DNA of 64,000 nucleotides. Source: Pyronema omphalodes (lineage: Eukaryota > Ascomycota > Pezizomycetes > Pezizales > Pyronemataceae). This document shows positions 1,881-57,395 of this stretch, one piece after another. The stretch's first letter is position 1; every line of letters starts with the position of its first letter. Location: NCBI GenBank assembly GCA_024516155.1, contig JAJJXM010000106.1:40805-104804 (forward strand). The letters are read 5' to 3'. A program made the translations under genes and the position numbers. The notes beneath the pieces were generated by a model. It was not told where the DNA came from. It made no database searches and saw only the letters and a program-made list of their open reading frames with translations.

Positions 1881-4608
1881 TTGGGGAAGGATGTGGGACA
1901 CCGGCGTGCGATCGGATGTGTCGGAGGGAGAGTGAGGACGCGAAGTGCGTATTGGCATTGCTTGTGGTCCAGGCGTATCGGTACCGGAGGTAGCGCGGTC
2001 TCGTTATGGAGCGCCAGTGTGGGAGTCGAGTTAAAGGCGTTGAGTATGCGGCGTAGGGCTGAATTTTGTTGGGTTTGTAGTTTCGAGGCAAGGTCTCTCT
2101 GTCGTGTCCACCATATCTCCGCGCCGAAGTCCGCACGGGTTTGGACGCATGCCTGGAAAATTAGTCGGGTCGTGAGGGGAGACAGACCAGTTTCATATCT
2201 TGCTAATCGGCATAGCGCGTTGAGCGTTCTTTGTGCGGCGGCTGTTTTTCTACGTACATGTGCTTTAAAGGTAAGGCGTCTGTCTAGGTACATACCAATC
2301 CATCGTACAACATCTTCTTCTCCTCCCTGCGTCCCAGGGCTCACTATCGTACCGTTCGGTAGTTTTACTTTTTCATTGTCTGTGATTGTATCTGACCTCG
2401 CCCAGTGGAAATGAAGGAGTTCCGTCTTTGAGTCGTCAAAGGCCACAGCGTTGGAAGCTGCCCAAGTGAATGCTGTTTTGGTGACTTTTTCCAGGAGGCG
2501 CGCGTTTTCTTTTCGGGTTCGACTCTGTAAGACGATTGCGACGTCATCCATGTAACTGGGGGTCCACACGAACGGGTGTTCCTGCATTAGTGCGTCGAAG
2601 AGCGGTCTTAAGTACAGGAGGAACAGGATCGGTGATGCTGGGGAACCCTGGGGGATTCCCGTTTTAATTGGGCGTTGGCGATCTGTTTGTCCGTCGAAGG
2701 ATAGAGCGGTCGTCCTTTCGGCGAGGAAGGTTTCGCACCATGTTCGGATTTGTCGGGGGCAGCCTAGCTGGTGTAGTGTCTGCTGAAGGCGATCGGTGGA
2801 GACATTGTCGAAAGCTCCGCGTACGTCCAGGAAAAGTGCTGTGGTGATAAGTTTCTGTTGTTTACCCATTTCAATGTCGTGGAGAGCGCCATTGCGGCGT
2901 CGATGGCGGATCGCTGCGGGCGGCCTCCTATTTGGTCTCGGTGTAACAGTTCCCGCGTCTCCGCGAGTTGTCCGAGCCGAGTTGCCATTAATTTCTCTAA
3001 CGTTTTTCCAAGGCAGTTCAGCAGGGCGATTGGGCGGTATGCCTTTGGATTTGCGTAGTCGGGTTTGTTAGGTTTTGGTATAATTACCCTCGTGGCCTCT
3101 CTCCACCCGCGGGGATGGTACCCTACAGTGCCCAGCGTCGAGTATAGATTGGTTAGGTATGTGGGGACGGCGAGACACACTTGGCGGAGACAACCAAAGG
3201 TTATCCCGTCGGGTCCTGGGGCTTTCGAGGGGGAAGAGGTAAAGATGGCTTGTTTGACCTCCGACGGCGAGAAGGTCGTCCACGCTGTCTCTCTGCGACA
3301 GGGGAGGGTGGATGAGGGGGGCGGGGGAGGTGGTGGGGGGAATAACATCTGAAATGCCTCTACTTTCCTGTCGAACGAACTGCAGAGTTCCTCCCTACCG
3401 TTGATTGTGGCGCGGATATTCGGAGTGAGTTGGGCACGGCGCGGGTTTGTGTATTTGAAGGCCCGCCAGACGTCCGGTCCTTCTGCCTGAGCCAGATACT
3501 CTTTCCACATCGCAGCCTTGGCATGTCTTATCTGACGGTGATACATGTTTCGTAGGCGGCGGTAAATGGTGTGGTTAGTGTCTGAGCCCGTTGATTTCCA
3601 CCTTCTTTTTGTGCGGGTCATATCCTTTCTGGCGGTGGTGACTTCCACCGTCCACCAACGTCTCGATCGGGGGGTGACTTGTAGTACGGGGGTGGAGGCG
3701 CGAGCTGCATCGAAGATATGTTCTCTCGCGTGGCGCGCCCAGGCGTCGAGGTTTTCGGGTGTGGGGTTGGAGGCGTATTGACTCCACTGTGTTGTCGATG
3801 CGGAGATGGATGCTTGGAGGGTCGTGGAGAACAAGGCCCAGTCTGTTTTCCGCCAGTTGAGACGTTCCGGTGGGGGGGCAGGTTCTATGTCTGGGTGCAC
3901 AGTTTGGATGTCGAAGCGAATTACTTCGTGGTCCGACCCGGTGGCTAATTCATCGTCTATGGCCCAGTTTCCTACCTCTTCCATCATGGCTGGCGAGGCC
4001 AGGGTCAAGTCGATAACGGAGGATCTAGTCCTCTGTTGGTAGTAGTGTGTCGGGGTGTCTGGGACTGAAACCAATCTCCAATTTTCCTGTTCTATAAGGT
4101 GTGCCAGTTCACTGGCACGTTTGGGTGTGCGTGTTGCGGAGTTCCATAGAGCGTGGTGAGCGTTGAGGTCACCTGTTATAACGCATCTGCGTCGGAGGGA
4201 AAGGGGTGATAGGGAGCGGTGAATTGTGTAGGTTTGGGTTTCGGGGTCACGTTCATTATAAATATTTAAAAGGAAAAACACGGGGATGAGATCTGTACCT
4301 ACCTCGAGGACCTGGAGGTCCGGGTCTGTACATATGTCTGTGCGTTGTGATACTTTCAGGTAAGGGTTTGTGCGATTGATATACGCCGCTGTCCTGTTGG
4401 AGGCTCTGTCACCGCGGGGGGGCAGGACCAACGTGAAGGCGGGGTGGGTGGTGGCGAAGGTGGGGTCGGTCATGTTGATTTCCTGTAGGAGGATGATGTC
4501 TGCTGTTGTGCAGGCGCTGTTTAGGAGGGAGTCGAGGGCTGGGCGTTGGCGATTCATATTATGGGAAACTATTCGGATCGTCGTTGCCAATTGGTTGTAA
4601 TTAGACAT
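1881..4608 (-). pseudogene. LINE-B ORF2 (endonuclease-RT), truncated and frameshifted
   Basis: ORF2 is the replicase of the element. The apurinic-type endonuclease begins at 4608 (MSNYNQLATTIRIVSHNMNR). It shows the expected motifs LLQEINM (catalytic E), TGDLNAHH, DLTLASPAMM and GSDHEVIRF. A proline-rich hinge near 3320-3345 leads to the RT, with KPNKPDYANPKAYRPIALLN, DVRGAFDNVS, GIPQGSPASPILFLLYL and YMDDVAIV, so the catalytic Asp pair is present. A one-base deletion near 2883, compared with the B2 copy, breaks the frame between palm motifs. LINE-A A1 removes the region after RRCPTSFP, so the RNase H is not in this piece. It starts by overlapping ORF1 by 8 nt. Confidence 0.88.
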
Positions 4609-5410
4609 GTTGGATCATGTCGGTGTCTTTGTCTGTAGGGTTGGGTGAGGTAGAGGCGGCGGGTTGGGTTGCCTCTCTGGCTTCCTTGTGGATGCGGAGG
4701 CGAGTCGGGCATTGTTTGTGAAAGGCGGGATGGTCATGTTCGGGGATGCCAGCCTCGACGCAGTTTCTGCATTCGTACTTAGTGTGTGAGCACGACTTAC
4801 CGTTTCTCGTCGGGCATTCGGTGCAGTTGTGGTTCTCCGTGGGGTGTTCTGTTCCACAGAGGGCGCAGATCGGTCCGGGGGGTCCAGTGCAGGTTGCGTG
4901 GTGGTGGCCGTACAGTTGGCACCGTCGACATTGATCGGTTTTCCTCGCGGTGAAGTATTCGGTCACCCTTCGCGCTTTGAAGAGGACCAGCACCTTACGG
5001 CGTTTGAGGAGGGCCAACTCGTCGGGCGTCCGCACTGCAATTACTACACTGGAGGCCGTCTTGCCAGCGCGCTTTTCTGCCGTCGTCATGTACCGCGGAG
5101 TCTGGGCCAGGGTGACCGGTTTGTTGCTCCGTTCGATTTCTTCCCGGAGGAGGCGCATTCCTTCCTCAGTGTCGGGGTAGATATCCGTGGGGATGCCGTG
5201 GACGGCGAGTTTATACCATCCTTCGTTGATGCGAGGGCTGTCGAGAGAGGGGTGTACGGTTTGGGCAGCGCGTTGAATTGTTTCTAAGTGTGCGGTTAGC
5301 TCTTCGGCAGTGGTAGCAGGGTTCAGTGTCAAGATGATATTTCCCGCTTGGTTTTTGCGGACCGTAGTGACTCCCATGTGAGAGGGTGCTTTGGCCTCCA
5401 GCAGTGCTTT
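4601..5410 (-). pseudogene. LINE-B ORF1, C-terminal half (right of the Copia break)
   Basis: This is the second half of LINE-B ORF1, directly after the Copia-1 insertion. It carries the RNA-binding-like block (NIILTLNPATTAEELTAHLE, then RINEGWYKLAVHGIPTDIYP) that aligns with LINE-A ORF1 (KGNLIL and RINEKWYKLAVHGIPTE). It ends with three CCHC-type zinc knuckles: CRRCQLYGHHHATC, CALCGTEHPTENHNC and a CPTRNGKSC/CRNCVEAG cluster. The stop at 4601 overlaps the ORF2 start by 8 nt (ATGTCTAA). The N-terminal half is at 10855-11735. Without the Copia the frame reads across the junction. Confidence 0.87.
5406..5410. repeat. Target-site duplication of Copia-1, left copy (gcttt)
   Basis: The five bases gcttt precede the 5' LTR and recur at 10855-10859 after the 3' LTR. 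A 5-bp duplication is usual for Copia integrases. It marks the insertion point in LINE-B ORF1. Confidence 0.93.
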
Positions 5411-5571
5411 TGTTGAAGTGCGCCTAAGGCCCTAGTGCTTAGGTGGAGGTGGACCACTCTCTATGTATAGGCACTCGCTTGCCCGTCTATGTCTGACTCT
5501 TTACGCTCGTTAATACATCCGGTTGCCACCTCCACTTTCTTCTTCTTCTCGTGCCTGTGAGACCTTCGACA
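5411..5571 (+). repeat. Copia-1 5' LTR
   Basis: This 161-bp LTR begins TGTTGAAGTGCG and ends GACCTTCGACA, so it has the TG...CA termini. It is the same as the LTR at 10694-10854 as far as I can compare by eye. A TATA-like stretch (tatgtatagg) lies about 55 bp in and may direct transcription. Confidence 0.95.
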
Positions 5572-5587
5572 GGTTATGAGCCCTTGC
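5572..5587 (+). other. Primer-binding site, complementary to the anticodon region of initiator tRNA-Met
   Basis: Directly after the LTR, GGTTATGAGCCCTTGC is the complement of a GGGCTCATAACC-type sequence. That is the anticodon stem-loop of eukaryotic initiator tRNA-Met (CAT anticodon), not a tRNA 3' end. Drosophila copia primes from the 5' half of tRNA-iMet in this way. The same 16 bases occur in Copia-2. The sequence match is seen; the priming mechanism is inferred. Confidence 0.75.
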
Positions 5588-5675
5588 GTAACCGCTACTC
5601 TTACCGTTATCCTTTATTAGTCATAACTTATATTATTTCTTCACTTTCCCACTAATTTTAATTACTCTCTCCGAC

Positions 5676-6590
5676 ATGTCCGACGAGGTCCAAGAACCCA
5701 CTGCTTTGAAGTGCCCAATCCTTACGGTCGCCAATTATGCGCAGTGGAAGGACCCCATCCACTTTATCCTGGCCGGGAAAAGCGCCTGGAATATTGTGAA
5801 CGGAAAGGAGACGCGCCCTGCTGGCGGCACCAGCCAACAAGCTCAGAGGGATCTCCAATACTTCGATGAGAGGGCGGCCAGAGCTACCCAGATCATCTTT
5901 GACCACTGCGACATCACCTGCCGCAGAGTCATCACCGGACTCGACAATCCACGGGAGATGTGGCTAAAACTCGAAGCCCGGTTTGATAACTCGAAAACAA
6001 ACTCTGGACGAAGGAACCTCGGGATTAAGTTCTGGAGATCCAAGCCTAACCCCGGGCAGTCCATGTCGAAATGGATAACCGATCTCCTCAATATTCAGGC
6101 TCCCCTCACCGGTACAGTTTTAGATATCAGCGACACTGCGCTGGTTAATTATGTTATTGCAAATCTCCTCGACTCCTACGGAGTTACGAAACACGAGCTC
6201 GCGAAACTTGACAATATTGCAGTTGACGAGCTCCAGAAGATCTTGCACGACCACGAGCACATGTGGGAAGCCACCCTAGGATCCCCGAAGGGCGAGGCGC
6301 ATGCTACGACGACCAAGTGGTGCGACCACTGCAAACGATCTAGCCATAACACGAAGCAATGCTACGCAAATCGCAACAACAACAAACGCGCAGCATCCTC
6401 AAGCGCCGGACCGTCCAGACCTACTAAAACTTCGAAAAAGGAGGATGTCCAGTGCCACTACTGTACAAAGAAAGGGCATGTTGCGACAGAGTGCAAGCTC
6501 AGATCTTCAGCTACCGCCATACGCGAGCGGTACAAGCTTCGCTCCAGTGCGAAAATTGCCGAGTTAGACAACACTGATCTCGGTATTTGA
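5676..6590 (+). CDS. gag: Copia-1 Gag (capsid/nucleocapsid precursor)
   Basis: The 304-residue Gag starts MSDEVQEPTALKCPIL at the first ATG after the leader. Residues about 20-190 resemble the alpha-helical capsid region typical of Copia Gags (YAQWKDPIHFIL, then MWLKLEARFD). Two CX2CX4HX4C zinc knuckles follow: CDHCKRSSHNTKQC near residue 218 and CHYCTKKGHVATEC near 260. Their role is packaging the genomic RNA. The frame ends at an in-frame TGA (6588-6590) that is also present in Copia-2, and the protease frame continues in register after it. Confidence 0.93.
   Translation: MSDEVQEPTALKCPILTVANYAQWKDPIHFILAGKSAWNIVNGKETRPAGGTSQQAQRDLQYFDERAARATQIIFDHCDITCRRVITGLDNPREMWLKLEARFDNSKTNSGRRNLGIKFWRSKPNPGQSMSKWITDLLNIQAPLTGTVLDISDTALVNYVIANLLDSYGVTKHELAKLDNIAVDELQKILHDHEHMWEATLGSPKGEAHATTTKWCDHCKRSSHNTKQCYANRNNNKRAASSSAGPSRPTKTSKKEDVQCHYCTKKGHVATECKLRSSATAIRERYKLRSSAKIAELDNTDLGI
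6588..6590 (+). promoter_or_regulatory. Candidate readthrough stop codon between gag and pol
   Basis: The codon TGA, followed by CTC, separates Gag from protease in the same frame. The same TGA CTC is in Copia-2 (32091-32093). UGA followed by C is the leakiest stop context known in eukaryotes, and a gag stop suppressed by readthrough is used by murine gammaretroviruses. It would make Gag far more abundant than Gag-Pol. This is inference from conservation and frame. It could also be an inherited defect. Confidence 0.55.
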
Positions 6591-8208
6591 CTCGGGAACT
6601 CCAGCACCTCCCTAACAGCGCAAGTCTTGATCGCAACAGACTCGTCCGCTGAGACACATACATGGGTGCTCGACTCTGGTGCAACGCACCATTTTTGTAA
6701 TGATAAATCTGCTTTTCTTATTGATTCTTTAGCTACTTGCAAGTCCATCAACATTCGCTTAGGTGACAATAGTACAGTCACGACCAACACCTACGGAAAA
6801 ATCATACTCAACAATCTCTTTCAAATCTCTGCACTATACGTTCCCACGTTTCGACTCTCCCTTTTCTCCCTGCCTCTCTTTGATAAAAGGGGGTGCAAAA
6901 TTACTATGGCGGACGGTACTTGTACTGTGAAAGACAAGACCTCCAAAACAATCATTGTCGCTCGCATGAAGGACAATCTTTACAGATGGACAGCAGAGGC
7001 CATTAAGGAGGACCACGACGCCCTGATAACCACTCGTTCTGGTGCAGGCGTTGACATTAACTCCATCCCCTCCTCGACCCGAACAATATCATCGAATGAA
7101 CGAACAAGTGCAGATGTTGACTTTACGCGTCCAAGCGACAAAGAACTTCGAACAGCACATAGACAGTCCTTCCGCCTTGAACCAACAAGCAATTTCGAGA
7201 TGTGGCACAGGAGACTGGCCCACCTCAATACCGAGTCCTTGTCTAAAATCATTAATTCGACTGATAAAACTACAACATCAGATCATCTCCAGTCCTGCAC
7301 AACGTGCATACAGGCCAAAAACCGACAGTCTTTTATCCGATTACCAACCGAACGTGCGAGCAAGCCTTTCGAACTTGTCCACTCGGATGTCTGCGGCCCG
7401 ATGTCGACTCCGTCGATCAGCCAACGACGATATTATATCATCTATATTGATGACTTTAGTCGTTTCGCCAAAGTTTACTTTCTAAAATCAAAATCCACAG
7501 ATGCCGTACTACCTGTATTCCAAGAATACAAAGCGTGGATTGAGTCTCAAGGACATAAGATTCTTCGGTTCAGGTGTGATAATGGCACAGGGGAGTTTAA
7601 CAATCAACAGTTCCGTTCTTTCCTGGCGAAAAACGGTATCTCGTTCGAACCCTCACCACCCTTCACACAGCATAAAAACGGAACTGCCGAGAGATTCATT
7701 CAGACAATCAACGGCAAAGCACGTTCCATGCTGCTAGACGCCCAAGTTCCTCATCGCTTCTGGACTGACACTGTCAACACGGCGGTGTACCTACACTCAT
7801 TATCTCCGACTAGGACGCTCAAAGGCTGGCTAAGTCCTCATGAGGCCCTGTTTCACAGGCCGCCTCAGCTGCTACACCTTCGAAGATTCGGTTGCACGGT
7901 CTTCAAGCATATACCGAAGGAGCAGAGGACAGACAAGAACTGGAGTGCACGCGCGTCACACAGCATGATGGTTGGATACACAGAGTCGTCAAAGATTTGG
8001 CGCATCTATGACTTCAATTCACGTTCTGTCGTGCGCGCTTCCAACGTCGTCTTCTTAGAGGACAATAATGCCTTCGATTCTGAAGGACGTCCGAATACAT
8101 CAGAGGAAATCATCAAGGCAATATCTGACTGTTTCCCTGATATCATTGAAGGAGGTGATGAGAATGCGTCAGCGCTCATATCACATGAGATAGACGCCCT
8201 CATTCAGA
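6591..8208 (+). CDS. pol: Copia-1 Pol exon 1: protease and integrase
   Basis: This continues in the Gag frame after the TGA. The aspartic protease active site is WVLDSGATHHF (about 6660-6695). The GAG-pre-integrase zinc site follows (MWHRRLAHLN, then CTTCIQAKN). The integrase core has the DDE triad in HSDVCGP (about 7382), FRCDNGTGEF (about 7570) and NGTAERF (about 7680). Unspliced, the frame stops at 8222. A GTATGT donor at 8209 allows splicing to the RT exon at 8603. The first ATG after the stop (6627) is probably not used as an independent start, because the protease frame is already open before it. Confidence 0.92.
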
Positions 8209-8602
8209 GTATGTACAAATGATCACCCCAACCTTTTCCATGTCACCGCTGTAGGACCTTTTCACGGCCACACGGTATAGTCTCTTTCACGTTATCTTCG
8301 AGTCGGATCAGCCTTCATGCTGCCTCACTCTGATTATACATTGACAATTCCGTCTTGAATGTCACTGTCCCGATCAGCCTTCATGCTGTCCGGACTACTC
8401 TTGCTAGGCGAATATGCCACACACTGATTATCATCAGTTCAAGGATACTTATCCTGAAAATTTTACCCGATTAACACTCCGCTGTGCATCTCCTCACGAG
8501 ATTCTGCCACGTAATCCCTGTCTACTGCTTTCCCTTGTTTCTCAAATTTCTTTCTCTACTGCTCAGATATTCACTTCTTTGAACTAACATCCTAATTCTC
8601 AG
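8209..8602 (+). other. Candidate spliceosomal intron inside Copia-1 pol
   Basis: The 394-bp segment begins GTATGT and ends TTCTCAG, with a CTAAC branch site at 8584-8588, 14 nt before the AG. Removal joins ATT CAG A to AT GCT TCT AAT GAC ATG, which fuses integrase to RT in frame (phase 1). Copia-2 has an intron of exactly the same length with the same signals. Inside is a near-perfect direct repeat of GATCAGCCTTCATGCTG (around 8318 and 8372). Without splicing, integrase stops 14 nt into the intron and RT lies in another frame. Confidence 0.8.
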
Positions 8603-10446
8603 ATGCTTCTAATGACATGAATTCACTGTCCCTACGCGACGAGCGACTGAAGGCCAACAAACTAAACAAGTCCCGCTACGAAGACATTGATGTTGACGAC
8701 GCCCTGGCCTCGGCCTTTCTCGCCGAAGCAACTATAGACGATCCCGACCAGGCCATAGGTCCTGATCTACTTGACGGCGACCCGACCTCTTACACCGCAG
8801 CAATGAAGAACGCTGACCGGGACAACTGGAGAACTGCGATGCAAGAAGAATGGAACTCTTTACTGATAAACGAAACCTTCCAGGCCTTCAAATCAAGTGA
8901 CAATGCAGAACCTCTCCGACCAGTGTCATTGCCTGATGCATTCGACAATCAAACATCCTACAGCGGCATCACTGTTCCCTTTGGATGCAAGCCTTTGAAG
9001 TGCCGATGGATTTACAAAACCAAACGCAACATTGACGGCAGCACAAAGTTCAAGGCCCGACTGGTTATAAAGGGTTATGAACAAGTTCCGGGAATTGATT
9101 ATGGTGAGACATATGCACCTGTCTCCAAGCTAAGTACTCTACGTTACCTGCTAAGCTTATCTGCAACCAGGGGGTGGTCAGTCGACCAAATGGATGTCGT
9201 CACGGCCTTCCTCAACCCAGCCATTGACAACGAAAGGACTTTCATGTCCATGCCTCCCGGTATCGAATGGCTCGATAAACGTCTATCAAAAACATCGACG
9301 GTTCGCCTGCTGAAAGCCCTGTACTGCCTAAAACAGGCACCCCGATTATGGTGGGCCCAGATTAATGACTTCCTCATGAAGCAAGGTTTCCGACAAGCAC
9401 ACGCCGACTCCAACCTCTACCTCATGAAGGACGCATTTCTGCTTTTATATGTCGACGATATCTTGATCTTCAATCTGACAAAACAGAGAATGGGCGACAA
9501 CATCAAGAAGGCCCTCCGTGCTCGCTTCGAAATGACAGATCTCGGAAAAGCGACTCGTTTTCTCGGCCTCGAACTCGAATACTTGCCTCACGGAAGTATT
9601 GCCATCTCGCAGAAGCATTGCATTGAGGGGGTGATTGCCAGATACGGTCTTCTTGAGGCCGCACCCACCTCTTCCCCGATGGACATTCATGTTGATCTTG
9701 AGAATACTGACTGCGAAGACAAGACCACTGATGAACAGCAAAAACGCCTGTATCTATCAATGGTCGGATCACTAATGTACGCAGCAATCGGAACTCGTCC
9801 TGACATCGCCTTCGCCGTGACTGCCCTCAGCCGATACAATCAGTCGCCTCTAGCAATGTACATGACCGCTGCCAAAAGGGTTATCCGATACTTGAAAGGT
9901 ACGAAAAATTTGTCGATTATCTACAAGCGTAACCACGACATACCGCAGGACTGTTTGCGACTCTTCTCCGACAGCGACTGGGCCGGCAGTACAGCCGATC
10001 GGAAAAGCGTCAGGGGGTGCGTAGTCCTTGCGCCAGGAGCGGACGGGCCGATCCACTGGAGCTCAAAGAAGCAGTCTGTCATCGCCCTTTCTACTCTTGA
10101 AGCCGAGTACATTGCATGCAGCAATGCGACCCGTGAAGCGATCTGGTTCCGCCTATTGATGGACGACACCGAAGCCTGGGATAACAAAATGCCGACCTCG
10201 GTCCGTTGCGACAACATGGGAGCACTTCGCCTCCTCCAGACCGGCGTCATCAAGGCGAAAACAAAACACATCGATGTGAAGTTTCACCACTCGATCGACG
10301 AAGCTAGAAAGGGAACGGTATCGTTCGAATACATTGCGTCCAAAGAAAATGTCGCAGATATCCTCACTAAACCGCTCCCTGGACCAACACACGCGTTGGC
10401 CGTGAAACTCTTAGGAATGGAAACGCTGAATGGTAATAATGATTAA
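8603..10446 (+). CDS. pol: Copia-1 Pol exon 2: reverse transcriptase and RNase H
   Basis: The open frame from 8603 includes a possible own start at 8617 (MNSLSLRDERLK). The RT has KARLVIKGYEQVPGIDY, VDQMDVVTAFLN (first catalytic Asp) and YVDDILIF (Asp pair). The RNase H has SDSDWAGS, STLEAEYIA and RCDNMGALRLL with IDVKFHH, so all four acidic and His positions look present. It ends with the usual Copia tail ENVADILTKPLPG. Two positions are unlike Copia-2 and the family: YCLKQAPR and IDYGETYAP. The usual Copia layout has no break between integrase and RT, so the separation here is unusual. Confidence 0.93.
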
Positions 10447-10693
10447 TGGGTTTGATTTGAATGAATAAGTGTGTGTTTGTGATTGAAGTATGGCTGCTGA
10501 TTGCTGATAATGATGATGATTGAATTGTGTTGTTTTTTATTTGGGTTGTTCTTCTTATGGGTTTTCACTTCTTCTTTTATGGGTAATTGGGTATTTTCTT
10601 TTTCTATGGTATTGTTCTTGTTTTTCTGTTATGATGGATTGTTACTTCTTCTTATTATTATGTTTGTAGCACCCGTCCTTAGACGAGGGGGTG
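10447..10693 (+). other. Copia-1 3' leader with polypurine tract
   Basis: This is a T-rich non-coding stretch after the RT stop. It ends in agacgagggggtg directly before the 3' LTR. The purine run at about 10681-10691 is the likely plus-strand primer. Confidence 0.75.
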
Positions 10694-10854
10694 TGTTGAA
10701 GTGCGCCTAAGGCCCTAGTGCTTAGGTGGAGGTGGACCACTCTCTATGTATAGGCACTCGCTTGCCCGTCTATGTCTGACTCTTTACGCTCGTTAATACA
10801 TCCGGTTGCCACCTCCACTTTCTTCTTCTTCTCGTGCCTGTGAGACCTTCGACA
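10694..10854 (+). repeat. Copia-1 3' LTR
   Basis: This 161-bp LTR appears identical to the 5' LTR by eye. It is followed by the gcttt duplication at 10855-10859, after which LINE-B ORF1 resumes. Confidence 0.95.
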
Positions 10855-11735
10855 GCTTTGTTCACTGCGAAGCCCACTTCTACTCTCGCGTGGACCGGGA
10901 GGACACTGGGGTTGGAGCCGGGCAGAACGATTTCCTGGGGGCTGGTTCCGGGCTGTCGTTTGACGACGGGGCGAGTAGTGGCGGGTGTGGGGTTGGTGGG
11001 GGGGTTGGCTTTGAAGCGAGTTTTCGTCTTGGAGGGGTCCGCCCACGGCGTCAAGGGTGCGTTGGAGGGGCGGGTTGCAGTCCGGGGTGCGTCGAGGGGG
11101 ATGGCGATGTTGTTGCTGCGTAAGACTTCTTCGAGTATGTGGCATCTCGCTATCCAATGGTGTACGTCGTTGGTGATGGGCTTGGTGGCCGGTGCGGTGT
11201 CGGGGGCGGTCGGGGGGTTGTCGGCGAGGTGGTTGGTTCGGGGCTGGGTGTTGGTTCGGTGTAGTTTGTCGATGCGTTTGGTCACAGTTTCGAGGCGTTG
11301 ATTCATTGGGCGGAGGAGATCCATGATGTTCGTCTTGATCAATTCGGATAAGGTCGCGAGGGTGACGCCGGATGTAGTTACTGCGTGCTGGCTGTCGTTG
11401 AGGTCCAGGTCAGAGTCGGAGTCGGAGTCGGTGTCGGGGTAGTTGTCGGTGTCCATAGCGGTCGGCATTGTTTTGACGGGGGTCCCATCAAGGTTCACGG
11501 GGGTGTTTGTTTTCGGTTGGGTGGCATTTTTGCGAAGGAGGTCAATTCTAGAGTCGGATTTTTTGGTGGAGCGTTTGATGAATTTTGCGGTGACGGTCGT
11601 TGATTTCTTAGAGGTCGCGATGGCGGAGGAGCCAGCGTGCGGGGCGTTGATTCGGGAAAGCTCGTCGTGGCTAACAATATTCTCGGGTACCTGCATACGC
11701 GAGGGCGTGGCAGGGATGGGTGCGTTAGCGTCCAT
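10855..11735 (-). pseudogene. LINE-B ORF1, N-terminal half (left of the Copia break)
   Basis: ORF1 starts at 11735 (MDANAPIPATPSRMQVPENI). The N-terminal region is basic and low in complexity, with an acidic TDSDSDSDLDLNDS stretch. A predicted helical segment follows (LATLSELIKTNIMDLLRPMN, then LETVTKRIDKLHR). The conserved EIVLPGSNPSVLP...VEVGFAVNKA block corresponds to IIIPCPDPRSFP...IAIGTAVNDA in LINE-A. At A|V the Copia begins; the protein resumes at 5410. This shows that the pieces at 4601-5410 and 10855-11735 are one gene. Confidence 0.86.
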
Positions 11736-27824: not shown

Positions 27825-27985
27825 TGTCGAAGGTCTCACAGGCACGAGAAGAAGAAGAAAGTGGAGGTGGGAACCGGATGTATTAACGAGCGTGAAGAGT
27901 CAGACATAGACGGGCAAGCGAGTGCCTATACATAGAGAGTGGTCCACCTCCACCTAAGCACTAGGGCCTTAGGCGCACTTCAACA
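27825..27985 (-). repeat. Copia-2 3' LTR
   Basis: This 161-bp LTR is on the minus strand, with the TG...CA termini. It is preceded on the sense strand by the purine tract at about 27988-27998. Confidence 0.95.
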
Positions 27986-28231
27986 CACCCCCTCGTCTAA
28001 GGACGGGTGCTACAAACATAATAATAAGAAGAAATAACAATCCATCATAACAGAAAACAAGAACAATACCATAGAAAAAGAAAATACCCAATTACCCATA
28101 AAAGAAGAAGTGAAGAAACCCATAAGAAGAACAACCCAAATAAAAACAACACAATTCAATCATCATCATAATCAGCAATCAGCAGCCATACTTCAATCAC
28201 AACACACACTTATTCATTCAAATCAAACCCA

Positions 28232-30075
28232 TTAATCATTATTACCATTCAACGTTTCCATCCCTAAGAGTTTCACGGCCAACGCGTGTGTTGGTCCAGG
28301 GAGCGGTTTAGTGAGGATATCTGCGACATTCTCTTTGGACGCAATGTATTCGAACGATACCGTTCCCTTTCTAGCTTCGTCGATCGAGTGGTGAAACTTC
28401 ACATCGATGTGTTTTGTTTTCGCCTTGATGACGCCGGTCTGGAGGAGGCGAAGTGCTCCCATGTTGTCGCAACGGACCGAGGTCGGCACTTTGTTATCCC
28501 AGGCTTCGGTGTCGTCCATCAATAGGCGGAACCAGATCGCTTCACGGGTCGCATTGCTGCATGCAATGTACTCGGCTTCAAGAGTGGAAAGGGCGATGAC
28601 GGACTGCTTCTTTGAGCTCCAGTGAATCGGCCCGTCCGCTCCTGGCGCAAGGACTACGCACCCCCCGACGCTTTTCCGATCGGCCGTACTGCCGGCCCAG
28701 TCGCTGTCGGAGAAGAGTCGCAAACAGTCCTGCGGTATGTCGTGGTTACGTCTGTAGATAATCGACAAATGTTTCGTACCTTTCAAGTATCGGATAACCC
28801 TTTTGGCAGCGGTCATGTGCATTGCTAGAGGCGACTGATTGTATCGGCTGAGGGCAGTCACGGCGAAGGCGATGTCAGGACGAGTTCCGATTGCTGCGTA
28901 CATCAGTGATCCGACCATTGATAGATACAGGCGTTTTTGCTGTTCATCAGTGGTCTTGTCTTCGCAGTCAGTATTCTCAAGATCAACGTGGATATCCATC
29001 GGGGAAGAGGTGGGTGCGGCCTCAAGAAGACCGTATCTGGCAATCACCCCCTCAATGTAATCCCTCTGCGAGATGGCAATACTTCCGTCAGGCAAATATT
29101 CGAGTTCGAGGCCGAGAAAACGAGTCGCTTTTCCGAGATCTGTCATTTTGAAGCGAGCACTGAGGGCCTTCTTGATGTTGTCGCCCATCCTCTGTTTTGT
29201 CAGATTGAAGATCAAGATATCGTCGACATATAAAAGCAGAAATGCGTCCTTCATGAGGTAGAGGTTGGAGTCGGCGTGTGCTTGTCGGAAACCTTGCGTC
29301 ATGAGGAAGTCATTAATCTGGGCCCACCATAATCGGGGTGCCTGTTTTAGGCCGTACAGGGCTTTCAGCAGGCGAACCGTCGATGTTTTTGATAGGCGTT
29401 TATCGAGCCATTCGATACCGGGAGGCATGGACATGAAAGTCCTGTCGTTGTCAATGGCTGGATTGAGGAAGGCCGTGACGACATCCATTTGGTCGACTGA
29501 CCACCCCCTGGTTGCAGATAAGCTTAGCAGGTAACGTAGAGTACTTAGCTTGGAGACAGGTGCATATGTCTCATCATAATCAATTCCCGGAACTTGTTCA
29601 TAACCCTTTATAACCAGTCGGGCCTTGAACTTTGTGCTGCCGTCAATGTTGCGTTTGGTTTTGTAAATCCATCGACACTTCAAGGGCTTGCATCCAAAGG
29701 GGACAGTGATGCCGCTGTAGGATGTTCGATTGTCGAATGCATCAGGCAATGACACTGGTCGGAGAGGTTCTGCATTGTCACTTGATTTGAAGGCCTGGAA
29801 GGTTTCGTTTATCAGTAAAGAGTTCCATTCTTCTTGCATCGCAGTTCTCCAGTTGTCCCGGTCAGCGTTCTTCATTGCTGCGGTGTAAGAGGTCGGGTCG
29901 CCGTCAAGTAGATCAGGACCTATGGCCTCGTCGGGATCGTCTATAGTTGCTTTGGCGAGAAAGGCCGAGGCCAGGGCGTCGTCAATATCAATGTCTTCGT
30001 AGCGGGACTTGTTTAGTCTGTTGGCCTTCAGTCGCTCGTCGCGTAGGGACAGTGAATTCATGGCATTGGAGGCAT
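28232..30075 (-). CDS. pol: Copia-2 Pol exon 2: reverse transcriptase and RNase H
   Basis: This is open from the acceptor at 30075 to 28232, with a possible internal start at 30061. The RT motifs are KARLVIKGYEQVPGIDYDET, VDQMDVVTAFLN, ALYGLKQAPRLWW and YVDDILIF. The RNase H has SDSDWAGS, STLEAEYIA and RCDNMGALRLL, and the chain ends in ADILTKPLPG. All catalytic residues and the conserved YGLKQAPR are intact. Splicing of 30076-30469 would fuse it to integrase. Confidence 0.94.
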
Positions 30076-30469
30076 CTGAGAATTAGGATGTTAGTTCAAA
30101 GAAGCGAATATCTGAGAAGTAGAGAGAGAAATTTGAGAAACAGGAAAAACAGTAGACAGGGATTCCGTGGCAGGATCTCCTGAGGAGATGCACAGCGGAG
30201 TGTTAATCGGATGAAGTTTCAGGATAAGTATCCTTGAACTGATGATAATCAGTGTGTGGCATATTCGCCTAGCAAGAGTAGTCCGGACAGCATGAAGGCT
30301 GATCGGGACAGTGACATTCAAGACAGAATTGTCAATGAATAGTTAGAGTGAGGCAGCATGAAGGCTGGTCCGACTCAAAGATAACGAGAAAGAGACTACA
30401 CCGTGTGGCCGTGAAAGGTCCTACAGCGGTGACATGGAAAAAAGGGTTGGGGTGATTATTTGTACATAC
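30076..30469 (-). other. Candidate spliceosomal intron inside Copia-2 pol
   Basis: The intron is 394 bp, the same length as in Copia-1. It begins GTATGT (30469-30464) and ends TTCTCAG (30076), with an ACTAAC branch site just upstream. Removal joins ATT CAG A to AT GCC TCC AAT GCC ATG in frame. The unspliced integrase frame ends in TAA here and TGA in Copia-1, so the intron has diverged while splice signals and length are kept. Confidence 0.8.
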
Positions 30470-32090
30470 TCTGAATGAGGGCGTCTATCTCATGTGATAT
30501 GAGCGCTGACGCATTCTCATCACCTCCTTCAATGATATCAGGGAAACAGTCAGATATTGCCTTGATGATTTCCTCTGATGTATTTGGACGTCCTTCAGAA
30601 TCGAAGGCATTATTTTCCTCTAAGAAGACGACGTTGGAAGCGCGCACGACAGAACGTGAATTGAAGTCATAGATGCGCCAAATCTTTGACGATTCTGTGT
30701 ACCCAACCATCATACTGTGTGACGCGCGTGCGCTCCAGTTCTTGTCTGTCCTCTGCTCCTTCGGTATATGCTTGAAGACAGTGCAACCGAATCTTCGAAG
30801 GTGTAGCAGCTGAGGCGGCCTGTGAAACAGGGCCTCATGAGGACTTATCCAGCCTTTGAGCGTCCTAGTCGGAGATATCGAGTGTAGGTAGACCGCCGTG
30901 TTGACAGCCTCAGCCCAGAAGCGATGAGGAACTTGGGCGTCTAGTAGCATGGAACGTGCTTTGCCGTTGATTGTCTGAATGAATCTCTCGGCAGTTCCGT
31001 TTTTATGCTGTGTGAAGGGTGGTGAGGGTTCGAACGAGATACCGTTTTTCGCCAGGAAAGAACGGAACTGTTGATTGTTAAATTCCCCTGTGCCATTATC
31101 ACACCTGAACCGAAGCATCTTATGTCCTTGAGATTCAATCCACGCTTTGTATTCTTGGAATACCGGTAGCACCGCGTCTGTGGATTTTGATTTCAGGAAG
31201 TAAACTTTGGCAAAACGACTGAAGTCATCAATATATATGATATAATACCGTCGTTGGCTGATCGACGGAGTCGACATCGGGCCGCAGACATCCGAGTGGA
31301 CAAGTTCGAAGGGCTTGTTCGCACGTTCGGTCGGTAATCTGATAAAGGACTGTCGGTTTTTGGCTCGTATGCACGTTGTGCAGGACTGGAGATGATCTAA
31401 TGATGTGGTCTTATCAGTCGAGTTAATGATCTTAGACAAGGACTCGGTATTGAGGTGGGCCAGTCTCCTGTGCCACATCTCGAAATTGCTTGTAGGTTCA
31501 AGGCGGAAAGACTGTCTATGTGCCGTTCGAAGGTCTTTGTCACTGGGACGTGTAAAGTCGATCTCTGCACTTGTTTGTTCATTCGATGATATCGTTGTTC
31601 GAGTCGAGGAGGGGATGGAGTTAATGTCAACGCCTGCACCAGAACGAGTGGTTATCAGGGCGTCGTGGTCCTCCTTAATGGCCTCTGCTGTCCATCTGTA
31701 AAGATTGTCCTTCATCCGAGCGACAATGATTGTTTTGGAGGTCTTGTCTTTCACAGTACAAGTACCGTCCGCCATAGTAATTTTCCACCCCCTTTTATCA
31801 AAGAGAGGCAGGGAGAAAAGGGAGAGTCGAAACGTGGGAACGTATAGTGCAGAAATTTGAAAGAGATTGTTGAGTATGATTTTTCCGTAGGTGTTGGTCG
31901 TGACTGTACTATTGTCACCTAAGCGAATGTTGATGGACTTGCAAGTAGCTAAAGAATCAATAAGAAAAGCAGATTTATCATTACAAAAATGGTGCGTTGC
32001 ACCAGAGTCGAGCACCCATGTATGTGTCTCAGCGGACGAGTCTGTTGCGATCAAGACTTGCGCTGTTAGGGAGGTGCTGGAGTTCCCGAG
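30470..32090 (-). CDS. pol: Copia-2 Pol exon 1: protease and integrase
   Basis: This follows the Gag TGA in frame. The protease is WVLDSGATHHF. The zinc site is MWHRRLAHLN with CTTCIRAKN. The integrase triad is in HSDVCGP, FRCDNGTGEF and NGTAERF. The unspliced frame ends at 30456. It is nearly identical to Copia-1 with a scatter of substitutions (for example HRFWAEAVNTA for HRFWTDTVNTA). Confidence 0.92.
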
Positions 32091-33005
32091 TCAAATGCCG
32101 AGATCAGTGTTGTCTAACTCGGCAATTTTCGCACTGGAGCGAAGCTTGTACCGCTCGCGTATGGCGGTAGCTGAAGACCTGAGCTTGCACTCTGTCGCAA
32201 CGTGCCCTTTCTTCGTACAGTAGTGGCACTGAACATCCTCCTTTCTCGAAGTTTTAGTATGCCTGGACGGTCCGGCGCTTGAGGACGCTGCGCGCTTGTT
32301 GTTGTTGCGATTTGCGTAGCATTCCTTGGTGTTATGGCTAGATCGTTTACAGTGGTCGCACCACTTGGTCGTCGTAGCATGCGCCTCGCCTTTCGGGGAT
32401 CCTAGAGTGGCTTCCCACATATGCTCGTGGTCATGCAGGATTTTCTGAAGTTCGTCAACTGCAATATTGTCAAGTTTGGCGAGCTCGTGTTTCGTAACTC
32501 CGTAGGAGTCGGGGAGATTCGCAATAACATAATTGACCAGCGCAGTGTCGCTGATATCTAAAACTGTACCGGTGAGGGGAGCCTGAATATTGAGGAGATC
32601 AGTTATCCATTTCGACATGGACTGCCCGGGGTTAGGCTTGGATCTCCAGAACTTGATCCAGAGGTTCCTTCGTCCAGAGTTTGTTATCGAGTTATCAAAC
32701 CTGGCTTCGAGTTTTAGCCACATCTCCCGTGGATTATCGAGTCCGGTGATGACTCTGCGGCAGGTAATGTCGCAGTGGTCAAAGATGATCTGGGTAGCTC
32801 TGGCTGCCCTCTCATCGAAGTATTGGAGATCCCTCTGAGCTTGTTGGCTGGTGCCGCCAGCAGGGCGCGTCTCCTTTCCGTTCACAATATTCCAGGCGCT
32901 CTTTCCGGCCAGGATAAAATGGATGGGGTCTTTCCACTGCGCATACTTGGCGACCGTAAGGATTGGGCACTTCAAAGCAGTGGGTTCTTGGACCTCGTCG
33001 GACAT
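32091..33005 (-). CDS. gag: Copia-2 Gag
   Basis: The protein has 304 residues, starting MSDEVQEPTALKCPIL, with the same capsid region and two zinc knuckles (CDHCKRSSHNTKEC, CHYCTKKGHVATEC). It stops at TGA (32091-32093) followed by CTC, as in Copia-1. The codon before the stop region differs silently (GGC ATT TGA versus GGT ATT TGA), which rules out a conserved GT splice donor at this place. Confidence 0.93.
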   Translation of the reverse strand: MSDEVQEPTALKCPILTVAKYAQWKDPIHFILAGKSAWNIVNGKETRPAGGTSQQAQRDLQYFDERAARATQIIFDHCDITCRRVITGLDNPREMWLKLEARFDNSITNSGRRNLWIKFWRSKPNPGQSMSKWITDLLNIQAPLTGTVLDISDTALVNYVIANLPDSYGVTKHELAKLDNIAVDELQKILHDHEHMWEATLGSPKGEAHATTTKWCDHCKRSSHNTKECYANRNNNKRAASSSAGPSRHTKTSRKEDVQCHYCTKKGHVATECKLRSSATAIRERYKLRSSAKIAELDNTDLGI

Positions 33006-33093
33006 GTTGGATAGAGTAATTAAAATTAGTGGGAAAGTGAAGAAATAATATAAGTTATGACTAATAAGGAATAACTGTAAGAGTAGCGGATTC

Positions 33094-33109
33094 GCAAGGG
33101 CTCATAACC
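33094..33109 (-). other. Copia-2 primer-binding site
   Basis: The sense sequence GGTTATGAGCCCTTGC directly follows the 5' LTR. It is identical to the Copia-1 site and complementary to an initiator tRNA-Met anticodon region. Confidence 0.72.
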
Positions 33110-33270
33110 TGTCGAAGGTCTCACAGGCACGAGAAGAAGAAGAAAGTGGAGGTGGGAACCGGATGTATTAACGAGCGTGAAGAGTCAGACATAGACGGGC
33201 AAGCGAGTGCCTATACATAGAGAGTGGTCCACCTCCACCTAAGCACTAGGGCCTTAGGCGCACTTCAACA
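33110..33270 (-). repeat. Copia-2 5' LTR
   Basis: This 161-bp LTR is followed at 33271-33275 by gggtt. Transcription would run leftwards. Confidence 0.95.
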
Positions 33271-43985: not shown

Positions 43986-45416
43986 AGTGTCACATCATCG
44001 AAGAAAAACGGCAACGGCGACCCCCCCCCCTGCATTCTCAACAACGAGCACCGAAACCCCCGGTTTTCTCATTGGATTCGGATTCGCAGCACTCTGTTAC
44101 GTTATTCTCTGAATTTTCAGGGAATTCTACGTTGTTTTTGTTGACTTTTGTCGCAAAATCAGAGTTTTCACGAGTTTTGGCTTACCCCACCTCACGAAAT
44201 GTCGCCAAAACAACGACAGAACAACGCCCGACGATCGAAACGGTCCGAAAACGCGTACAATGTTCTGGCCGACCTTACTCATGATGGATCTAATCCTACA
44301 TTTGATGAAAGAGATGGAAAAGTTGATGAAGTTGATGGAAACCTCGCTGGAAAGCCCTTCCAGAGCGTGGTCTTGGCAGGATCACCAGTTCCTTCGGCTT
44401 CAACACACCAGCAGCAAGCGACACCTGAGCACAACCGATTCAGAGAATTTCGCCGCGATCTGGTTATTGCTATGCGAGACGCTATCGAAAAAGACGACAG
44501 CGATAGCAGCTTGAGCGCCCTGTTCTGTGAACATGAACCGCTTTTCACAGGAGCAAGCTTCCTGGGGATACAACAGATCCACCGGGACACACAGCGTCGC
44601 TTCAATACGCTCGATGACACCATACGCAACAACAGCGATGAGATGCGCCACAGATTCGATGTCATGATGACGAAATTCAACGTTCTGCTCGGCGAAAACA
44701 CAAAGCGGCGCGCAGCATACAACTCTACACAGAAAGAAACAGCAGCTCTCAAGGCTGCTGTGGATGCCCTGACGACGAAAATCGACGAACAGCACCAAGT
44801 CATTTCGGCGCCCCCCTCACCGAACCTCACGGCCTCTTCCTCAGCGATGGAAGAGATGACTATGCAACTGTCCGTCGTCCAACATGACATTCAGGATGTC
44901 CTGGACGCTGTTCGCAACCCTCCTGGCAAGAGAAAGCGAAGGGGTAGCGACCAGAACACCGAACCCACCTCACCGACAAACAGAAGACCGGTGAACCACA
45001 AACCGAGAGCGGCATCACCGGTGCGAAGCCTGATGCACTCGAAACATGCGACTACCGCCGCCCAGGACAAGCTTGATGCCCTCAAGCCTATGTCCCCCCT
45101 ACCTCTCCTCGCGATCACGTCGACCGAAGCGACACCGGAACCTCACCCTGACAGTTCATCTGTTCAGGACACACCTCTACCCGACGCCCCAAGCACTGCC
45201 CCTGCTGAGATGAACGGATGGAAGACTGTGGAGGCGAAGGCTACACAGAGGAAGAAGCAGAAAGCGAAGGAGACGACACCTACGGCAGCGCCACCCAGCA
45301 AGACCCCTACAACAAAGAATGGTGGCCGGGGAAAGAATACCCACCAACCCAGAACGACAAACTCCTCTGCAAAGAAGACTTGGGCAGAAGTCGTCAAGAG
45401 CGGAGGCATCAACGTC
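43986..45416 (+). mobile_element. HL3, half-LINE, 3'-truncated (left arm)
   Basis: After about 20 bp of filler (cagtgtcacatcatcgaag) the 5' terminus ACGGCAACGGCGACCCCCC begins at about 44011. The copy is complete to GGINV (45416), then switches to antisense LINE-A. From 44102 it is the outer part of the left palindrome arm, and HL6 is its mirror. Confidence 0.82.
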
Positions 45417-45713
45417 ACAACTGCGGTCGGGCATCCCAGTGCGCGCATTGTCGTGAGGAGGCCCGCGGAGGAGATATTGTCGAAGGCTCTTCGCACATCG
45501 AAAAATACTGCGGAGGTTACCATGCGGCGCCCCGCATTCGCTTCGACCTCGTGCGTTAGGGCCATTGCAGCGTCGATAGCCGAGCGTTTAGGGCGCCCGC
45601 CTATCTGGTCTGCATGCAGTATGTCGTGTGACTCCGCCATGAGGCTGACCCGAGTCGCCATAAGTTTTTCTAGAATTTTTCCCATGCAGTTCAGCAACGC
45701 GATGGGACGATAG
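44199..45713 (+). CDS. HL3 ORF1-like protein fused to antisense LINE-A sequence
   Basis: This is open for 504 residues from the ATG (MSPKQRQNNARRSKRSENAY). Residues 1 to about 405 are the HL protein: variable segment FRRDLVIAMRDAIEKDDSDS, coiled coil, KRKRRGSD, TWAEVVKSGGINV. From 45417 on the frame translates the antisense of the LINE-A RT, ending SFSRIFPMQFSNAMGR. The tail is accidental sequence by origin. HL6 in the right arm has the same fusion, as expected for a duplicate. Confidence 0.75.
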   Translation: MSPKQRQNNARRSKRSENAYNVLADLTHDGSNPTFDERDGKVDEVDGNLAGKPFQSVVLAGSPVPSASTHQQQATPEHNRFREFRRDLVIAMRDAIEKDDSDSSLSALFCEHEPLFTGASFLGIQQIHRDTQRRFNTLDDTIRNNSDEMRHRFDVMMTKFNVLLGENTKRRAAYNSTQKETAALKAAVDALTTKIDEQHQVISAPPSPNLTASSSAMEEMTMQLSVVQHDIQDVLDAVRNPPGKRKRRGSDQNTEPTSPTNRRPVNHKPRAASPVRSLMHSKHATTAAQDKLDALKPMSPLPLLAITSTEATPEPHPDSSSVQDTPLPDAPSTAPAEMNGWKTVEAKATQRKKQKAKETTPTAAPPSKTPTTKNGGRGKNTHQPRTTNSSAKKTWAEVVKSGGINVTTAVGHPSARIVVRRPAEEILSKALRTSKNTAEVTMRRPAFASTSCVRAIAASIAERLGRPPIWSACSMSCDSAMRLTRVAISFSRIFPMQFSNAMGR

Positions 45714-47283
45714 GCCTTAACTGCGCTGTAGTCAGGTTTGTTCGGTTTCGGGATAACCACCGTCGTTGCTTCACGCCAGCACCTCGGGTGTATCCTTTGT
45801 CACCTAGCCTTGCGTACAGCGCATCGAACACCTTGGGGATTGCGTCATAGGCTCTCCTTAGGCATGCGAACGTTATCATGTCTGGACCGGGGGCTTTCTT
45901 GGGGGAGGAGTAGTAGATTGCGTGGCGTACTTCTTCGGGGGTGAATGTGTGCCAGGGGATAATGGGGTGTGTGGGGGGGGTTTGGGTCTGAGGGGCAGCG
46001 CGGGGGGGTGAGAAGAGAGCCTGAAAGGCGTCTACTTTGCCTTCGAAATCAACATGTACCTTATCAATCCCACCTACCTGGGTCTTTATTGGGGGGGTCA
46101 GTTGGGCGCGCCGGGGGTTTGTATATCTGAAAGCGGCCCAGACATCGGGACCTTCTGCGGCTGCCAGGTATTCTTTCCATAGGGAGTCCTTCGCGTGTCG
46201 TACTCTGCGGTAGTGGGTGTTCCGGAGGCGTTGGTATTCCGCATGATGGGCTGGGAGGCGAGTAGTTTTCCATCTCTTTCACGCACTCTGCATCTTTCGT
46301 CGAGTCGTGTTTAGTTCCTCCGTCCACCACCTCTTCGAGCGAGGAGTCGGGGAGAGGGTCGGTGTCGCTTTTTGGGCAGCTGCCTGGATGGAGTCACGAA
46401 TGAGAGCGGCCCATTCGTCCAGGTTACTTGCGGACGGGTTTGCGCGGAGGTGTGTCCAGTATGGGTGACTGGCCTCAGCGAGGGTTTGTAGTTCCCTGGT
46501 AAAGGTCTCCCAATCCGTTTTCTGCCAGTTAAGTCGTGGGGCGGTAGGGGTGGCGGTATCATGGTCTGGGTGGAGGGACGTTAGTTGAAAGCGGATGACC
46601 TCGTGGTCTGAACCTGTGGCTAGGTCGTCGTCGACTGCCCAGTTTGTGAGTTCCCTTGTCATCGCGGGGGATGTCAGGGTCAGGTCCAGAACCGACGAGC
46701 CAGATCCGTCCTTGTACTGGTGGGTCGGGACGTCGGGGACGTTCGCCAGATTCCAGTGGTGGGTTTCGATCAACTCCACGATCTCTTCAGCTCGGGCTCT
46801 CCTGCGAGTGTTGGAATCCCACAAGGGGTGGTGTGCGTTGAGGTCTCCCGTGATGACACATCGGCGAGGGAGGACGAGGGGGGTGAGGGCTCGGGGTGGG
46901 GTGTATGGTTTAGAGAGTGGGTCACGTTCATTAAAGATGTTAAGTAAAAAGAAGGGGGGTATTAGGGGTGTGCGGACCTCGAGGACTTGTAGGTCTGGGT
47001 CTGCGGTGACATCTGGTCGAGGTGTGACAGTGATGTGGGGGTTCAAACGAGAGACGTAGGCGGCGGTCCGGTTGACCTTGTGATAACCGCGGGGGGGAAG
47101 CAAAAGAATGAAGTTGGGGTGGGTTATAGCAAATTTGGGGTCCTTGACGTTTACCTCTTGGACAAGAATGATGTCGGTGGTAGCGCTTGCTGTATTTAGC
47201 AGCGTCGTGAGGGCGGTGGTGCTTCGATTCGTGTTGTGGGACACGATGCGGAGGGTCGCCGCTGATGAATGTTGTCTATTCAT
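45417..47283 (-). pseudogene. LINE-A ORF2 (A5), endonuclease and partial RT
   Basis: The endonuclease is open from 47283 (MNRQHSSAATLRIVSHNTNR) to 46279, where CGA has become TGA (after RRKMQSA). All endonuclease motifs are present (VQEVNVKD, TGDLNAHHPLW, GSDHEVIRF). The RT N-terminus follows with indels (C-run near 46003-46009, a lost base near 45789). It ends at DVRRAFDNISS and GCPTAVV. The right-arm copy at 54214-56080 has the same stop. Confidence 0.86.
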
Positions 47284-48148
47284 CGGCGGTCATGGTGGTA
47301 TCGGTAATGGGGTCGGTTTCGGCGGGGATGTTGTCGTAGGTGGTGTCTGGGCGGGTTTTGAGCCATGCCTCTCTCACAATTCCTATTTTCACTGGGCATT
47401 TAGTGCTGTATGCTGCGTGTTGGGTGTCAGCATGTCCAGCGGCTACACAGTTTGAGCATCTGTAAACGGTGTGAATGCACTTCCTGCCCTTCTGTTTGGG
47501 GCATTCTCCACAGAAGTGGTATTCCGTTGGGTGTACGGCCGCGCATATGGCGCAGGTAGGTCCGTTGTCGGCGGCGCACGTTGCGTGGTGGTGGCCAAAC
47601 TTCTGGCACCTACGACATTGGTCGATGGGCCTGGCGGAGAAGAACTCGGTGACTTTTCGTGGTTCGAACAGGACGACGACCTTCGTGCGTTTCAATGTGT
47701 TGTAGTCGTTGAGAGAGTTGAGGGCGATCATGACGCTCGACGCCGACTTACCGGCCCGTTTCTCGGGGTGTGATATGTACCGCGGTGGTTGGGTTAAGCT
47801 GACGGAGTGGTTTCCCTCGATCTCGACTTGCAGTTTTTGCATGCCTTCTTCGGAGTCTGGGTAGTATTCGATTGGTACGCCGTGGACCGCCAGTTTGTAC
47901 CACTTCTCGTTTATGCGGGGGGGGTAGCAACGTAGGGTGTACTGTGCGGGCGGCTTTGAGTATAAGGGGCAGGTGGGGGGTAATATCGGCGGGTGTAGTT
48001 TGGGGGGGGGGGGGGGTCAAAATAAGGTTTCCTTTCACGTTCTTCTTTACCATCGAGATGGAGACCTTCTCAGTAACATGTGCTGCGCGCAAGGCGTCGT
48101 TGACGGCAGTTCCAATTGCTATCTTGGAGCTCTCGGGGAAGGAACGGG
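47276..48148 (-). pseudogene. LINE-A ORF1 (A5), C-terminal part
   Basis: This has IAIGTAVNDALRAAHVTEKV, then LILTPPPPQTTPADITPHLP, the frame that agrees with LINE-B, so A5 preserves the original reading here. The RNA-binding block and three zinc knuckles follow in another frame after a G-run (47914-47922). The stop at 47276 overlaps ORF2 by 8 nt. HL4 separates it from the N-terminal part. Confidence 0.85.
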
Positions 48149-57298: not shown

Positions 57299-57395
57299 TT
57301 CGTGAGGTGGGGTAAGCCAAAACTCGTGAAAACTCTGATTTTGCGACAAAAGTCAACAAAAACAACGTAGAATTCCCTGAAAATTCAGAGAATAA
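56081..57395 (-). mobile_element. HL6, half-LINE, truncated at both ends (right arm)
   Basis: The mirror of HL3. The 3' end is lost at the LINE-A junction and the 5' UTR is cut at 57395, where it joins the end of LINE-B B2. There is no tail or target duplication, so this is a product of the inversion and not of an insertion. Confidence 0.83.

Follow-up and report, generated by a model that had tools for sequence, protein, structure and literature searches.

Copia retrotransposons of Pyronema omphalodes with a conserved probable intron between integrase and reverse transcriptase, and its probable role in the supply of reverse transcriptase

Herein we describe a long terminal repeat (LTR) retrotransposon of the fungus Pyronema omphalodes, two copies of which lie in opposite orientation (copy 1, 5411–10854, plus strand; copy 2, 27825–33270, minus strand) within a window of 64,000 nucleotides, i.e., the whole stretch that was analysed (contig JAJJXM010000106.1 of assembly GCA_024516155.1, positions 40,805–104,804). 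With integrase placed before reverse transcriptase (RT), an RT of the RVT_2 type, TG..CA LTRs and a short target duplication, the element belongs to Ty1/Copia. Its pol gene is interrupted between integrase and RT by a segment bearing the signals of a spliceosomal intron, and the sequences make it very probable that this is an old intron handed down within a clade of Copia elements, whose spliced RNA gives a Gag-Pol protein that includes RT and whose unspliced RNA serves as template. The loss of introns after passage through RNA is a textbook sign of retrotransposition.

The two window copies belong to a family that we term D. A 601-bp query was compared with the 60.8-Mb genome, where 40 of 60 candidates were scored, all 40 at 93–100% identity, and family E was recognized as two diverged copies about 80% identical to D over the 601 bp. 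Matches were obtained at 45 loci, of which L071, L072 and L073 were set aside because their match begins inside the segment; 42 were aligned, and L070 is without the acceptor end, leaving 41 for the acceptor, branch point, ATG and length. The donor GTATGT was present in 42/42 copies, the branch motif CTAAC in 41/41 and the acceptor AG in 41/41 (CAG in 40, TAG in one). The original prediction of a 394-bp segment with GTATGT, CTAAC and CAG in both window copies was borne out at 8209–8602 and 30469–30076, although its “exactly 394 bp” is true of these two copies and not of the family, in which the 41 complete segments measure 381–399 nt (length modulo 3 of 0, 1 and 2 in 16, 10 and 15 copies). By codon arithmetic the junction is in phase 1, with the first base of a split codon at the end of exon 1 and its last two bases at the start of exon 2, so that splicing would restore one Pol frame, as had been proposed. 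Unspliced RNA had been expected to stop right after integrase, with RT in another frame: the integrase frame stops after four codons in 38/42 copies but only after 23 or 44 codons in the other four, and RT lies in another frame in 25/41 copies but in the same frame, behind an intervening stop, in 16/41. The LTR pairs of both window insertions (161 bp, TG..CA, flanked by 5-bp target duplications) show zero differences within the pair, again in keeping with the prediction. A further CTAA-like candidate for the branch point, closer to the acceptor, was dropped, being present in only 32/41 copies. One locus, L047 (G000:C163:605100-608298), combines a D-like intron with an adjoining RT match of 711 nt, as in E, instead of 723 nt, and this mix might reflect recombination between subfamilies.

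Variability was compared for 37 of the 42 loci (35 D, two E), L008, L042, L046, L067 and L070 being too short. Among the 35 D copies, variable positions amounted to 1/14 in the splice signals versus 132/355 in the interior (this count took the five branch positions as TAACA, one base 3′ of CTAAC, whose 41/41 was counted separately). In the exons, the variable columns of the D copies numbered 53, 44 and 106 at codon positions 1, 2 and 3 of exon 1 (about 263 columns each) and 55, 43 and 87 in exon 2 (about 228 each). Between a D copy (L001) and an E copy (L074), differences were found at 0/14 splice positions, 85/354 interior positions and 28/109 plus 44/96 four-fold sites. The intron interior drifts near, or slightly below, the four-fold rate, whilst both exons and the splice signals remain conserved. 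Because of the contrast in variability between signals and interior, and because two diverged families carry the intron at the same junction and in the same phase, the conservation of the splice signals is, on these alignments, beyond chance.

An RVT_2 profile returned 112 matches in the genome, distributed over several families. In family C (RT about 60% identical to D) and family B (about 47%), integrase and RT occupy separate open reading frames (ORFs), and both families have a phase-1 intron at the junction corresponding to that of D, with GTATGT..CTAAT..TTTAG over 395–413 nt in 10/10 matched C loci and GTAAGC..CTAAT..GATAG over 203–230 nt in 6/6 matched B loci; L028 of the C family and the degenerate, B-like L034 did not match the pattern. 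In families A and F (RT 28–34% identical) there are uninterrupted frames, the longest being 1495 and 1351 aa, respectively, although some of their copies are shorter or broken. For comparison, we took four host introns, selected by eye among pattern matches in two HSP70 genes and a tubulin gene (guided by exon motifs that we take to be those of these genes); these four, of 51, 54, 88 and 54 nt, carry GTATGT or GTAAGT, CTAAC or CTGAT, and YAG, the same kind of signal as the element intron. The segment shows the features of a spliceosomal intron, with conserved donor, branch and acceptor and a removal that would join two constrained frames; exon constraint was measured for D/E, and phase 1 on both sides was seen in three families.

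The original prediction held that the insertions came from unspliced RNA, which would show in a survey of genomic copies. Exon-end patterns with a gap of 0–30 found no intron-minus locus genome-wide in D/E, C or B, while the same patterns with an intron-sized gap found 34, 16 and 8 intron-plus loci, respectively, or 58 in total. If these insertions came from RNA, that RNA was unspliced, which agrees with what had been proposed. Three contig sets with matching hits (C35/C188, C166/C173 and C28/C226) suggest allelic or duplicated contigs, and since the first two appear to be allelic, the independent insertions are fewer than 58. The check for target duplications covered the two window copies.

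A further feature bearing on expression is the end of gag, an in-frame TGA CTC (window 6588–6593; 32091–32093 on the minus strand) followed by pol in the same frame in 20/20 D pieces (18 pieces plus the two window copies, representing 20 of 40 listed places, with L084 outside the intron loci); TGA CTC also separates gag and pol in the single C piece and the single B piece read. This arrangement makes it likely that the TGA is passed by readthrough. A mini-intron at the TGA was ruled out, window copy 2 having GC at the would-be donor GT. Given the in-frame TGA, two gates probably act in series, readthrough for Pol and splicing for RT, and RT is apparently obtainable from spliced RNA only. In the cycle that we propose, the host would splice the intron out of part of the element RNA; the spliced RNA would be exported and translated into Gag and, past the gag TGA probably by readthrough, into Gag-protease-integrase-RT-RNase H. 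Unspliced RNA would give at most Gag and Gag-protease-integrase, and would be retained or packaged and reverse transcribed. The intron-bearing insertions suggest that both RNA forms are made. RT would then act on an RNA in which its own coding sequence is not readable and, the template being unspliced, every new insertion would carry the intron again. Similar behaviour has been described in plants (here and below, from the portions covered of the papers cited): unspliced full-length RNA of EVD is enriched in the nucleus in Arabidopsis (PMC8892269), and BARE has separate RNA pools (PMC3735527).

Folding of the intron, computed for one copy, was no better than that of shuffles (z −0.61), and Rfam gave no match across 5400–10860; with an interior that drifts and this z value, no packaging signal is evident in the intron. 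The same observation would suit a reading in which splicing is real but serves mainly something other than RT supply, the spliced RNA being a poor template, or slow splicing affecting export or host silencing. Precedents are at hand, in that intron retention keeps full-length EVD RNA nuclear in Arabidopsis (PMC8892269), poorly spliced introns feed RNA interference in Cryptococcus (PMC7175516), and the small interfering RNA of fission-yeast Tf2 depends on cryptic intron splicing (PMC7175516). We nevertheless regard this as rather unlikely to be the main role: only when joined do the exons give one Pol frame, and any further role of the intron would leave the supply of RT dependent on splicing.

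A separate RT start at 8617, also considered in the original prediction, fared less well. An ATG does stand there, 15 nt after the last base of the acceptor, in 38/41 copies; many RT-only ORFs of relatives, among the matches listed, begin with a Met near the equivalent point, and in the plant Copia element Bianca about 172 bp separate two ORFs (PMC6317226). RT could on this basis be translated separately, from its own ATG or from a subgenomic RNA, with the segment as a spacer. This is improbable, however, since a spacer gives no reason for three families to retain donor, branch and acceptor, and the ATG is lost in 3/41 copies (CTG in both E copies, ATA in L069). The full exon-2 codons ahead of the first in-frame Met number 4 in D, 2 in B (L020), 45 in C (5/5 read) and 66 in E (L074), and over the first 65 of these codons L074 differs from L001 at 10, 4 and 25 sites of codon positions 1, 2 and 3. 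By this count, exon 2 of E is under protein-level constraint upstream of any Met, which favours translation of RT from exon 1 via splicing and disfavours a start of its own. It is very improbable that an assembly error accounts for the segment, or that it is sequence which degenerated in, or was inserted into, copies now dead: stops do occur in the RT of some copies and 3/45 matched loci (L071–L073) begin inside the segment, but more than 40 copies are spread over many contigs, both exons are constrained, the window LTR pairs are identical, and the junction is the same in three families. Ribosomal frameshifting or bypass as the means of joining integrase and RT can be practically dismissed, since the segment contains stops and its length falls in each of the three frames (16, 10 and 15 of 41 copies), even if the in-frame TGA between gag and pol means that recoding already occurs or is needed.

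Relatives seem to extend the reading of an inherited, spliced intron beyond this genome. No match to the DNA of relatives was found in viral contigs, nor in bacterial and archaeal genome contigs, and other species are thus known here from proteins only. From 8000 candidates scored, 1569 RT relatives were found (best 120 listed; proteins of 337–1073 aa, a range that favours RT-only ORFs); a second set of 536–1704 aa, intended to offset this size bias, comprised 809 (best 120 listed), and integrase relatives numbered 314 (best 120 listed). RVT_2 is the sole Pfam domain in 108 of the best 120 of the 1569 RT relatives, and in 68 of these best 120 the ORF starts 20–99 residues ahead of the first RT motif, compared with 60 for exon 2 of D. 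An RT tree was built by a quick method, which gave a long-branch warning, from 102 of 201 alignable rows, and rooted on A and F. Outside a 75-row group lie 24 one-ORF rows; within it are 13 mixed rows (eight RT alone, five one ORF) and a clade of the remaining 62 (54 RT alone, five intron rows, three one ORF) with a support of 99 in the Shimodaira–Hasegawa-like approximate likelihood ratio test. D/E/C and B fall on opposite sides of this clade (support on the B side 83), to which P0013 of Morchella importuna also belongs, and the split versus one-ORF label requires eight changes over the whole tree. Read most simply, the tree would mean that the ancestor of the 62 rows already had the intron, which was then rarely lost.

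The integrase proteins point the same way. P0236, an integrase-only protein 97% identical to D, comes from a separate ENA contig of 1848 bases and ends in SMYK like D, suggesting nearly the same element in another sample and an independent assembly, and in P0237, likewise integrase-only, the reading continues into the same intron start as C. Residues of a phase-1 GTATGT were found in 11 of 70 integrase tails among the matches listed (shuffle mean 3.7, maximum 10) and those of GTAAGT in 24 of 70 (shuffle mean 7.8, maximum 16; many from one subgroup and hence non-independent), whereas in 41 one-ORF linkers both fell below the shuffle mean (2 vs 5.7 and 8 vs 9.3, respectively). Moreover, a comparison of lists of 120 and 117 entries, one-ORF rows included, gave eight integrase-only/RT-only pairs on contigs of exactly equal size and with the same source label, one of them at 167,283 bases. 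The tails and paired contigs support a split pol in relatives and fall short of proving an intron in each.

Several points weigh against an inherited intron with two RNA forms. Splicing is deduced from sequence, and alternative splice pairings may occur. Within the 62-row clade stand three one-ORF rows (P0015, P0018 and P0066), of which P0015, either DNA- or RNA-derived, is 89% identical to the split P0025, so that the intron can be absent. RT-only rows may stem in part from contig ends or broken copies. Only six of the 11 GTATGT-type tails are convincing by position (P0246, P0309, P0310, P0327 and P0353 are not), to be set against the shuffle mean of 3.7, and control offsets of 1–200 gave a mean of 1.3 and a maximum of 6 size matches against the eight pairs observed. 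The survey patterns demand exact exon ends and overlook mutated copies, about a fifth judging by the 34 D/E loci matched versus 42 aligned. Lastly, at 394 nt the segment is much longer than the four host introns read (51–88 nt), and this greater length may itself lead to partial splicing.

The features of both copies are collected in Table 1. Exon 1 presumably also encodes the protease and exon 2, from Copia order, an RNase H part 3′ of RT, each without a Pfam match. Directly 3′ of the 5′ LTR lies GGTTATGAGCCC, a candidate primer binding site with a putative match to the anticodon arm of an initiator tRNA-Met. Copy 1 sits, with its GCTTT target duplication, inside what by its appearance is a putative ORF1 with zinc knuckles of a long interspersed nuclear element (window 4601–5377 and 10770–11735, minus strand). 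Elsewhere, in a repeat-rich cluster, 44101–47923 and 53574–57396 form a 3823-nt inverted repeat of 100% complementarity, either a very recent duplication or an assembly artefact.

Table 1 Features of the two Copia copies in the window.
Feature	Position	Strand	Remarks
Copy 1 5′ LTR	5411..5571	+	161 bp, TG..CA
Copy 1 target duplication	5406–5410 and 10855–10859		GCTTT
Copy 1 gag ORF	5676..6590	+	PF14223; terminates in TGA, then CTC; pol in same frame
Copy 1 pol exon 1	6591..8208	+	Pol_BBD, GAG-pre-integrase, integrase core (PF00665), SH3-like (PF25597 also matched in exon 1)
Copy 1 intron	8209..8602	+	394 nt, phase 1; GTATGT 8209–8214, CTAAC 8584–8588, CAG 8600–8602
Copy 1 pol exon 2	8603..10446	+	RT (PF07727); different frame from exon 1 when unspliced
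Copy 1 3′ LTR	10694..10854	+	Same sequence as 5′ LTR
Copy 2 5′ LTR	33110..33270	-	Target duplication AACCC
Copy 2 gag ORF	32091..33005	-	Terminates in TGA
Copy 2 pol exon 1 (integrase)	30470..32090	-	By likeness to copy 1
Copy 2 intron (locus L059)	30076..30469	-	394 nt, signals as in copy 1
Copy 2 pol exon 2 (RT)	28232..30075	-	By likeness to copy 1
Copy 2 3′ LTR	27825..27985	-	Same sequence as its 5′ LTR

Among known systems, the closest precedent is plant Ogre, which has a partially spliced intron in pol (PMC6317226). Ogre is, however, a Ty3/gypsy element of the Tat lineage with RT before integrase, whereas the P. omphalodes element is Copia with integrase before RT, and its intron, unlike that of Ogre, lies between the two and is seemingly common to a wide clade; the element is not an Ogre, although by analogy its intron may work like Ogre's. 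BARE1 of barley and EVD/EVADE of Arabidopsis are likewise Copia elements with an intron, distinct RNA pools and an unspliced template (PMC3735527, PMC8892269), but their spliced RNA encodes Gag only, whereas here splicing would be needed for RT. Drosophila copia also divides the work between spliced and genomic RNAs, its spliced RNA lacking 2.9 kb of Pol and serving Gag (PMC3735527). Tca2, a Copia element of Candida, shares the in-frame UGA between gag and pol, readthrough of which was not detected in baker's yeast, and an integrase–RT intron is not mentioned in the portions of PMC2194720 covered. In foamy viruses a splice event governs Pol expression via a spliced pol RNA (PMC2194720); that splicing frees Pol from Gag, whereas the splicing proposed here would unite two portions of Pol. 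Full-text searches of openly licensed PubMed Central papers, with repeat-database reports outside their scope, found no report of a fungal Copia element with such an intron, and the word “intron” is absent from the portions covered of two fungal surveys (PMC5445492 and PMC3248453). A pol intron of this kind is already known from Ogre, and its placement between integrase and RT in Copia would be a new variant.

We suggest, tentatively, the broader possibility that RT has been licensed by splicing throughout a large Copia clade, from its common ancestor onwards, the RNA that encodes RT never being the template and the template never encoding RT, with two RNA forms needed per cycle and the intron kept across many host species. 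Annotation would be affected too, since intact members of the clade resemble a pair of broken ORFs and risk being scored as dead. The intron has apparently been kept through many passages through RNA in at least three families, and the way in which an element divides its RNA between message and genome thereby becomes directly testable.
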